Below, in pieces: positions 1-2,842 of a stretch of 5,687 bases of DNA (positions are counted from its first letter, which is position 1; the number at the start of each line of letters is the position of its first letter). The position numbers and the translations under genes are program-made. Origin of the DNA: Blastococcus sp. CT_GayMR20 (lineage in GTDB: Bacteria > Actinomycetota > Actinomycetes > Mycobacteriales > Geodermatophilaceae); contig NZ_SPQM01000216.1 of the NCBI RefSeq assembly GCF_004570345.1, positions 1-5,687 on the forward strand, in the 5' to 3' direction. The notes under the pieces are model-generated. The model was not told where the DNA came from, made no database searches, and was given only the letters and a program-made list of their open reading frames with translations.

Positions 1-452
1 CCCAGTGCGTTCTCCGGCTCCGCGCTGACCGCCTCCGGGGAATGGAACTTCGTCAGCTCGAGCCGGCCGTGGCCGTCCGGGGTCCGCATCATCGCGATGT
101 CGACCCGGACGCCGTCGAGCCCGTTGAACCCCGGAGCGCCGGGGCGCCGTCCCGCTCCGATGCCGGCGGCCAGGGCGTCGTCCTCGTCGGCGTAGCGCGC
201 CGCCACGCCCGCGAGCGTGGCGGCCACGGCGCGCGCCCCGTCGGCCAGCAGCTCCTCGGCGGTCGCCCAGGCGAGCGCACAGCACTGGGCCGTCCAGCCC
301 TCGTCCCCGCCCAGCGCGGTGGCGAAGGACCGGCCGGTCGACCGGCAGAGCTCGGCGTCGCCGGCGAGCTGCCCGGCCAGGACCCCGAGCTCGGTCGCCA
401 GTGCGTGCAGGGCGGCCGGCTGGACCGAGAAGGCTTCCAGGGGTGAGGACAT
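1..452 (-). CDS. EspC-like type VII secretion protein fused in frame to a truncated VOC/glyoxalase domain (partial, 3' end outside window)
   Basis: The gene starts at ATG 452-450 and is open to the left edge (150 full codons). The start is well fixed: an in-frame TAG lies only four codons upstream (464-462). Residues ~8-100 resemble the EspC family of ESX secretion-associated proteins (PF10824, formerly DUF2580). They open with FSVQPAALHALA, are helical and Ala-rich, have a GW turn (G52-W53) in place of a strict WxG, and end with Y87-ADE-D91, matching the YxxxD/E type VII export signal. After a Gly/Pro/Arg linker (98-108), residues ~111-150 change character: GLDGVRVDIAMMRTPDGHGR followed by LELTKF is typical of VOC proteins (glyoxalase / methylmalonyl-CoA epimerase fold). 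E132 of LELTKF would be a metal ligand. The first VOC module, with its metal-binding histidine, is absent. I re-translated the stretch and saw no frameshift or stop at the junction. The EspC call is by resemblance; the VOC call is stronger. Function of the chimera is unknown, and it may be a deletion product. Confidence 0.65.
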   Translation of the reverse strand, partial: MSSPLEAFSVQPAALHALATELGVLAGQLAGDAELCRSTGRSFATALGGDEGWTAQCCALAWATAEELLADGARAVAATLAGVAARYADEDDALAAGIGAGRRPGAPGFNGLDGVRVDIAMMRTPDGHGRLELTKFHSPEAVSAEPENAL

Positions 453-580: not shown

Positions 581-2842
581 TCAGGGAGCGGTGACCTTCA
601 AACCGCTCGAGGCGTCGCTGGCGGCACCGCCGACGACGACCGACCGGCGCTTCGAGACGACCACCGCGGCCACGATCACCACGACCGCGGCGATCGCGAT
701 CGCGACGCGGAGACCGGTGTTGGAGTCGTCGCCGACGGACATGGTGACGACGGCCGGCGCGATGATCAGGGCGACGAGGTTCATCACCTTGATCAGCGGG
801 TTGATCGCCGGGCCGGCGGTGTCCTTGAACGGGTCGCCCACGGTGTCGCCGATGACGGTCGCGGCGTGCGCCTCGCTGCCCTTTCCGCCGTAGGCGCCGT
901 CCTCGACCATCTTCTTCGCGTTGTCCCAGGCGCCGCCGGAATTGGCGAGGAACACCGCCATCAGGGTGCCGGCCGCGATCGCTCCGACCAGGTAGGCCGC
1001 CAGCGGGCCGATGCCGAGGCCGAAGCCGACCGCGACCGGGGCGAGGACGGCGAGCAGACCCGGCGTCGCGAGCTCCCGCAGTGAGTCCTTGGTGCAGATG
1101 TCCACCACGGCGCTGTAGTCCGGGCGCTCGGTGTAGTCCATGATCCCGGGCCGCGTGCGGAACTGCTCGCGCACCTCGAAGACCACCCGGCCGGCGGCCC
1201 GTGAGACCGCGCTGATGGCCAGGCCGGAGAAGAAGAAGACCACCGCCGCCCCGAGTACCGCGCCGACGACGTTGTTCGGGTTCACCAGGCTGAAGGCGTC
1301 GCCGAGGGTCTCGCCGGCCTCGTCGAGGGCGACCCCGACCTGGGCGTTGTAGGACCCGAAGAGCGCGGTGGCGGCCAGGACCGCCGTCGCGATCGCGATG
1401 CCCTTGGTGATGGCCTTCGTGGTGTTGCCGACGGCGTCGAGGTCGGTGAGGGTGCGGGCGCCCTCCTCGTCGATGTCACCGGACATCTCGGCGATGCCCT
1501 GCGCGTTGTCGCTGACCGGGCCGAACGTGTCCATCGCGACGATCACCCCGGCGGTGGTCAGCAGACCGCAGCCGGCCAGCGCGACGGCGTAGAGCGCGGC
1601 GCCGCCACCGATGAGGAACGCCCCGTAGACGCCGGCGCCGATGAGCAGGGCGGCGTAGACGGCCGACTCCAGGCCGAGCGAGATCCCGGAGAGGATCACC
1701 GTGGCCGGGCCGGTCAGCGAGCTGCGGCCGATGTCCTTGACCGGCTTGCGGCTGGTCTCGGTGAAGTAGCCGGTGAGCTGCTGGATGGTCGCGGCGAGCA
1801 CGACGCCGATGAGCACCGAGACGAACCCGAGGACCTGCGGGCTGACCGACAGGTCGGAGACCTCGGCGATGCTGGGCAGGTAGGTGAAGGAGGCCGCGGC
1901 GACGAGCACGAGGGAGACCGCGGCGGAGGTGAAGAAGCCCCGGTTGATCGGGACCATGCCGCTGGAGTCGGTCTTGCTCGGCCTGGTGGCCAGGACGCCG
2001 ACGACGGAGGCGATCACGCCGATCGCGGCGACCAGCAGCGGGAAGACCATGCCGACGTTGCCGAAGAAGACCTGTCCGAGGATCAGGGCGGCGACCAGGG
2101 TGACGGCGTAGGACTCGAAGAGGTCGGCGGCCATGCCGGCGCAGTCGCCGACGTTGTCGCCCACGTTGTCGGCGATCGTCGCGGCGTTGCGCGGGTCGTC
2201 CTCGGGGATGCCCGCCTCGACCTTCCCGACGAGGTCGGCGCCGACGTCGGCCGCCTTCGTGAAGATGCCGCCGCCGACACGCATGAACATGGCCAGCAGG
2301 GCGCCACCGAAGCCGAAGCCCTCGAGCACGATCGGCGCGGTCTCGTCGAAGAGCAGCAGGGCCAGTGCCGAGCCGAACAGGCCGAGCCCGATCGTGATCA
2401 TGCCGACGACGCCACCGGTGCGGTAGGCGATGCGGAAGGCCGGCTGGTAGCCGCCGCCGCGCGCCGCGGCCGCGACCCGGACGTTGCCGCGGGTGGCCAG
2501 CGTCATCCCGATGAAGCCGACGGACGCCGAGAACAGCGCGCCGACGAGGAAGAACACGGCCCGGCCGATGCGGGTCTCCCAGCCGCCCTCGGCGACGGGG
2601 AGGACGAGCAGGAGCAGGAACACGATGACGGCGAAGACGCCGAGCGTGCGGAACTGCCGTCTGAGGTAGGCCGCCGCGCCTTCCTGTACCGCCTGGGCGA
2701 TCTCACGCATCTTCACCGTGCCCTGGTCGGCGGCCATGACCGCCTTGACCAGGAAGGCGGCGAAGCCCAGGGCGGCAAGGGAGACGACGAGGACGATGGC
2801 AACCAGGGCCATGTCCCCGCCGGACAGCGAACTTTCCGGCAT
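581..2842 (-). CDS. hppA: Membrane-bound proton-translocating pyrophosphatase (K+-independent type)
   Basis: Hydrolyses cytoplasmic pyrophosphate and uses the energy to pump protons across the membrane; family members have about 16 membrane helices and act as homodimers. The 753-residue product is of normal length for the family. The first membrane helix is at ~11-35. The signature motif is present: D199-VGA-D203-LVG-K207-V-E209, followed by the acidic DNVGDNVGDCAG loop (226-236) that binds Mg-pyrophosphate. The second acidic cluster (SGDIDEEG, 454-461) and the C-terminal motif GDTVGDPFKDTAGPA (665-679) are intact. In GNTTKAIT (472-479) Lys476 and Thr479 replace the Ala and Gly/Ala of K+-dependent enzymes, marking the K+-independent proton-pumping class. 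The start is ATG 2842, preceded by GGAGG at a five-base spacing and followed directly by the conserved N-terminal helix. The frame stays open upstream to 3334, but that part is antisense to the helicase and lacks conserved character. Divergent from the helicase gene; followed by a hairpin terminator. Confidence 0.97.
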   Translation of the reverse strand: MPESSLSGGDMALVAIVLVVSLAALGFAAFLVKAVMAADQGTVKMREIAQAVQEGAAAYLRRQFRTLGVFAVIVFLLLLVLPVAEGGWETRIGRAVFFLVGALFSASVGFIGMTLATRGNVRVAAAARGGGYQPAFRIAYRTGGVVGMITIGLGLFGSALALLLFDETAPIVLEGFGFGGALLAMFMRVGGGIFTKAADVGADLVGKVEAGIPEDDPRNAATIADNVGDNVGDCAGMAADLFESYAVTLVAALILGQVFFGNVGMVFPLLVAAIGVIASVVGVLATRPSKTDSSGMVPINRGFFTSAAVSLVLVAAASFTYLPSIAEVSDLSVSPQVLGFVSVLIGVVLAATIQQLTGYFTETSRKPVKDIGRSSLTGPATVILSGISLGLESAVYAALLIGAGVYGAFLIGGGAALYAVALAGCGLLTTAGVIVAMDTFGPVSDNAQGIAEMSGDIDEEGARTLTDLDAVGNTTKAITKGIAIATAVLAATALFGSYNAQVGVALDEAGETLGDAFSLVNPNNVVGAVLGAAVVFFFSGLAISAVSRAAGRVVFEVREQFRTRPGIMDYTERPDYSAVVDICTKDSLRELATPGLLAVLAPVAVGFGLGIGPLAAYLVGAIAAGTLMAVFLANSGGAWDNAKKMVEDGAYGGKGSEAHAATVIGDTVGDPFKDTAGPAINPLIKVMNLVALIIAPAVVTMSVGDDSNTGLRVAIAIAAVVVIVAAVVVSKRRSVVVGGAASDASSGLKVTAP

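Follow-up and report, generated by a model that had tools for sequence, protein, structure and literature searches.

An in-frame EspC–VOC junction at the left end of the window

The window, the whole 5,687-nucleotide stretch of DNA analysed here, carries at its left end a reading frame that joins an EspC/WXG100-like small protein to part of a VOC (glyoxalase) protein. In our view this EspC–VOC fusion is, with a probability of about 0.83, a chimera introduced by assembly at the end of a contig. We favour an assembly artefact because the two parts are separate in the relatives examined, the VOC piece is 127 bp long and terminal, a hydrolase gene lies downstream of the EspC-like gene in those relatives, and the two sides of the junction differ in kinship.

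The frame reads on the minus strand from position 452 to position 3 as 150 codons without a stop and runs off the start of the window. Codons 1–108 are EspC/WXG100-like, while the remainder corresponds to the middle of a VOC protein. The fused frame claimed by the preliminary description is thus real, with residues 1–108 matching stand-alone proteins and residues 110–150 matching ordinary VOC proteins. The seam of the two unrelated sequences, previously placed at codon 111 near position 122, lies instead at codon 108/109 (127..128, minus strand), and the VOC-like DNA starts at base 127. Specifically, base 128 is T on the gene's strand versus G or C in 14 of 14 VOC relatives compared. The closest EspC-like relatives end in GAPGSR or GAPGSP at about residue 110, and the window there continues into FNGLDGVRVDIAMM; at the seam, the EspC-like part falls short by about two codons plus the stop. 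The open frame across the seam, earlier read as a possible sign of selection, is weak evidence, because random coding joins stay in frame about one third of the time and only about 42 codons follow the seam inside the window. An assembly artefact does not explain why the seam should fall so near the expected stop, some two codons ahead of it; on that reading the position is coincidental.

Searches for a fused relative gave negative results. With the whole 150-aa protein as query, none was present in the best 120 of 6486 candidates, only those sharing most words being scored. The EspC part retrieved 9 of 344 candidates at E ≤ 0.01, all of them stand-alone proteins of 106–117 aa. A profile of 17 rows, led by a 148-aa ORF and admitting 0.55–1.75 times 148 aa, i.e. 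up to about 259 aa, was used to score the 7996 candidates sharing most words; the best 120 of 193 relatives are all 100–122 aa long, and none is fused. Furthermore, none of the 112 family genomes contains the 30-base seam, even with up to three mismatches allowed, and an exact copy was absent among viral contigs. None of the 72 records from a plasmid search covers 80% of the query, and the five listed align solely to query positions 331–452, mostly the VOC stretch. The preliminary description knew of no EspC–VOC architecture, and within these scopes the whole-protein, EspC-part, profile and seam searches show none.

Residues 1–108 are EspC/WXG100-like

Residues 1–108 (129..452, minus strand) are assigned from sequence matches, an AlphaFold2 model and Foldseek. 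Among the matches listed, they match stand-alone proteins of 106–117 aa, led by P0001 (86%), P0002 (84%) and P0003 (71%). The AlphaFold2 model is a helical hairpin with helices at residues 12–47 and 49–101 (pLDDT 90.7), as in the WXG100-type helix-turn-helix of about 100 residues. In Foldseek against the PDB, EsxA/WXG100 folds come out on top, with TM scores of 0.73–0.78 for the first ten and E values of 0.17 or worse, none reaching 0.001. A sequence-profile search of the PDB is unspecific, and its Esx matches (E 0.006–0.83) carry little weight because a designed alpha-repeat protein scores best (E 4.1e-05).

The PF10824 (EspC) score is 11 bits for the 150-aa protein and 12.3 bits for the first 106 aa, below the gathering cut-off of 23.5. 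The sole match of the window's own 108 aa at E ≤ 0.1 is DUF7241, at 15.6 bits (cut-off 27). Among 19 aligned family members, nine match PF10824 (best E 0.002) and five match PF06013 (WXG100; best E 0.00037) at E ≤ 0.1. The W-x-G motif is absent at the turn, where residues 53–55 of the window protein are W53-T54-A55. We therefore use the label EspC/WXG100-like without assigning the protein to the EspC family, since it scores below the PF10824 cut-off. It had been described as a complete EspC-like unit of about 105 codons; the likeness extends to codon 108, but the PF10824 match is weak and the last two or so codons and the stop are missing.

The YxxxD signal proposed at Y87–D91 is present in the window protein. 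Both positions are invariant in an 8-sequence alignment; across 19 aligned sequences D91 never varies and Y87 is at least 90% conserved. PMC4852179 describes YxxxD as a signal for ESX export. All 10 relatives searched have EccC-like TIGR03924 matches, none of them above the curated cut-off, and the control responds just as widely, giving matches in 9 of 14 well-known genomes. Judged from these motif and profile matches, ESX-type export of the stand-alone EspC-like protein is plausible.

The EspC-like gene has a hydrolase neighbour in relatives

The EspC-like gene was found in 80 of 112 family genomes (E ≤ 0.001), of which 25 were examined as loci. It is a separate ORF of 103–112 aa in every one of these 25 loci, and an Abhydrolase_8-like homologue (PF06259, 73.2 bits for the L001 copy) adjoins it downstream in all 25. 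In 23 of the 25, a potential start codon of the gene that follows, GTG in 16 and ATG in 7, overlaps the stop of the EspC-like gene. The EspC-like and Abhydrolase_8-like genes form a conserved pair (L083–L107 and L001), with a 4-base ATGA/GTGA overlap in those 23 loci.

In the window, the EspC-like gene comes next after an intact hppA gene encoding a membrane pyrophosphatase (581..2842, minus strand), and a small EspC-like gene likewise follows hppA in all seven Blastococcus-group loci read. The preliminary description had suggested comparing the locus downstream of hppA; in all 25 EspC-like loci examined, the EspC-like gene stands alone with the hydrolase next to it. The VOC query P0011 has no match in these 25 loci (2.3–3.3 kb) or in 80 helicase loci. 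Five Blastococcus loci (L004, L005, L009, L012 and L028) have no EspC-like match; the long frame at its place presumably encodes topoisomerase I. The EspC-like gene seems to be absent from part of the genus.

The right end of the window is collinear with relatives. A DECH/DEAH-box helicase gene (TIGR03817; 3057..5420, plus strand) is 94% identical to Blastococcus locus L018 and 93% identical to L001 and L002, which shows the affiliation of the contig; hppA DNA reaches at best 90% identity within the family. A gene for an Rv3654c-family TadE-like protein (TIGR03816; 5421..5687, minus strand) is cut by the right end. A misplaced right end was ruled out, as relatives match at about 70–74% identity to within 5–15 bases of the end. 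The helicase gene adjoins the TadE-like gene, as their NCBIfam names, which refer to a helicase/secretion neighbourhood, suggest.

The VOC piece is an internal gene fragment

The VOC/glyoxalase piece (1..127, minus strand) is an internal gene segment that reaches the window end and is 97.6% identical over 127 bp to the copy in genome G095 (locus L108). Residues 110–150 are 95–100% identical to the middle of the VOC proteins P0009 and P0011, of which P0011 matches PF00903 above the cut-off (61.9 bits). Window residue F109 stands opposite V44 of P0011, so that about 44 N-terminal VOC residues, counted from the alignment, are absent, fewer than the 50–60 estimated earlier. The first metal ligand, from its presumed position in the family, falls within this missing part. 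The in-frame 43-residue fragment within the window has no Pfam match, and a complete PF00903 domain with metal ligands is not present there, the N-terminal 44 or so residues being missing and the C-terminal half lying outside the window.

Of the 112 genomes, 33 carry a P0011-like VOC gene (E ≤ 1e-30) and 12 have one at 79% identity or more (G034, G038, G003 and nine others), a patchy distribution across the family. The VOC gene lies on another contig than the EspC-like gene in all 12 of these genomes. In five of them the two genes cannot be close, because the EspC-like gene is 59.5–201 kb from the nearest contig end; in the other seven it is less than 22 kb from a contig end, and there separate contigs alone are no proof of distance. 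Both genes are more than 70 kb from a contig end in G089 and G050, where the distance on the VOC side counts only the low contig end. Four genomes carry both genes on one contig, with a weaker VOC match (45–48% identity) and a linear distance, by coordinate subtraction, of about 343 kb or more. Conversely, EspC-like queries (25 and the window's own) have no match in 25 VOC loci of 3.2–3.4 kb.

The two halves also differ in kinship, as revealed by comparing hppA and the 127-bp VOC piece between the window and 14 genomes. G095, with the VOC piece at 97.6% identity, has an hppA only 85.1% identical to that of the window, while G034, which has the closest hppA of the 14 (89.9%), has a VOC piece at 89.0%. 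Across 91 genome pairs the VOC piece reaches a maximum of 94.5% identity, and in pairs with hppA at or below 86.5% (51 of the 66 among the 12 close-VOC genomes) it reaches at most 93.7%. The conflict rests on 127 bases, in which the window and G095 differ at 3 positions, whereas at a comparable hppA distance there are at least 8 mismatches. From identities alone, this pattern fits a VOC piece from another organism, and horizontal transfer would look alike.

The length of the VOC piece matches an assembly k-mer

The VOC-like DNA occupies exactly window positions 1–127, and is thus a terminal, foreign-looking segment of 127 bp. The portion of PMC10604447 that gives the JGI metagenome recipe lists metaSPAdes with k = 33, 55, 77, 99 and 127. 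In simulated data, as an extract of the COBRA paper (PMC10914622) states, metaSPAdes contigs broken by repeats carry ends of maxK length in the vast majority of cases, and non-unique joins may stem from one or a few reads. We infer that metaSPAdes, with k up to 127, produced the window as one complete contig: its length is odd, both of its ends fall within genes, and the three closest EspC-like relatives among the matches listed have JGI sources. The terminal foreign segment then has the maxK length, with k = 127 being presumed for the contig of the window.

An assembly artefact would account for the window as follows. The contig would be a normal Blastococcus-like stretch with TadE-like, helicase, hppA and EspC-like genes. 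At its left end, some two codons short of where the EspC-like gene should stop, the assembler would have passed from that gene to a 127-base VOC k-mer from another cell or locus, and the contig would have halted there, the k-mer being a branch point in the assembly graph. One point against an artefact is that a de Bruijn assembler joins nothing without bridging k-mers, reads or a gap-closing step being needed to supply the junction. Here a few chimeric reads or fragments would have provided the bridge. The true gene would most likely encode a stand-alone EspC/WXG100-like helical-hairpin protein of about 110 aa, produced jointly with the Abhydrolase_8 protein and perhaps exported through YxxxD by an ESX-type (type VII) system.

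Alternative explanations

The preliminary description offered three readings, an assembly error, a deletion between neighbouring genes and a real two-domain protein; the assembly error is the best supported, the deletion is disfavoured and the two-domain protein is unsupported. The main rival is a real, recent rearrangement in the strain, in which insertion, transposition or illegitimate recombination would have fused the EspC-like gene with an internal fragment of a VOC gene, an intact copy of which would persist in the sample. Such an event is unlikely, yet it agrees with several observations: the frame is open, a repeat shared with the intact VOC gene would likewise end the contig 127 bp past the junction, and the VOC genes are as patchy as a mobile gene might be. 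The seam about two codons before the expected stop would also be a sensible site for a domain fusion if the fusion were real. However, no VOC gene adjoins the EspC-like gene in the loci examined, the seam occurs in none of the 112 family genomes, and the VOC piece is nearer another lineage, although transfer would explain that too. The more specific proposal that, in some of the sampled cells, a very recent cross-lineage recombination joined the EspC-like gene in frame to the VOC fragment, so that a type VII-type substrate acquired a foreign tail, is distinctly unlikely. The product of a true rearrangement would be an EspC-like protein whose tail, an incomplete VOC part, could disturb the C-terminal export region.

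A deletion fusing two neighbouring genes would readily produce an abrupt, in-frame seam, but it presupposes a VOC neighbour, and the synteny of the EspC-like, helicase and VOC loci led us to reject it as very improbable: the neighbour of the EspC-like gene is Abhydrolase_8-like in 25 of 25 loci, and in all 12 genomes with a close VOC copy that copy sits on a different contig, well away from the EspC-like gene in the five with long flanks. Equally improbable is a genuine two-domain protein exporting a VOC-like domain through an ESX system. The YxxxD motif is kept, and EccC-like matches occur in relatives, though all are below the cut-off and the control responds widely; against it, no fused relative is seen among the matches listed, the VOC part lacks its N-terminal 44 or so residues, and Pfam is blind to the fragment in the window. 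Were the fusion real, it would add a new type of cargo architecture to type VII secretion. Read as an assembly artefact, the window illustrates how convincingly the last k-mer of a metagenome contig can mimic an in-frame gene fusion; a terminal segment whose length equals the k-mer exactly, which is 127 in the part of the JGI metaSPAdes recipe cited above, warrants a check before a fusion is claimed.

Comparison with known systems

The left end of the window shares with the metaSPAdes maxK terminal overlaps described in the COBRA extract (PMC10914622) a 127-bp terminal piece that appears foreign to the rest of the sequence; it differs in that a partner contig carrying the same 127-mer is presumed here. 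With the VOC/glyoxalase family (PF00903, PF13669) it shares the match of residues 110–150 to the middle of P0009 and P0011, whereas the window holds a fragment only, which begins after the N-terminal 44 or so residues and whose sequence past residue 150 lies outside the window. The closest likeness of the remaining part is to the EspC (PF10824) and WXG100 (PF06013) ESX substrates, with which the window protein shares a length of about 110 aa, a two-helix hairpin, and Y-x-x-x-D in the second helix, and its best matches among solved folds are WXG100 proteins. In contrast to these substrates, it scores below the Pfam gathering threshold, has no W-x-G, and is encoded beside hppA. What is left is most likely an ordinary new EspC/WXG100-like protein, encoded beside hppA in a Blastococcus-like bacterium.
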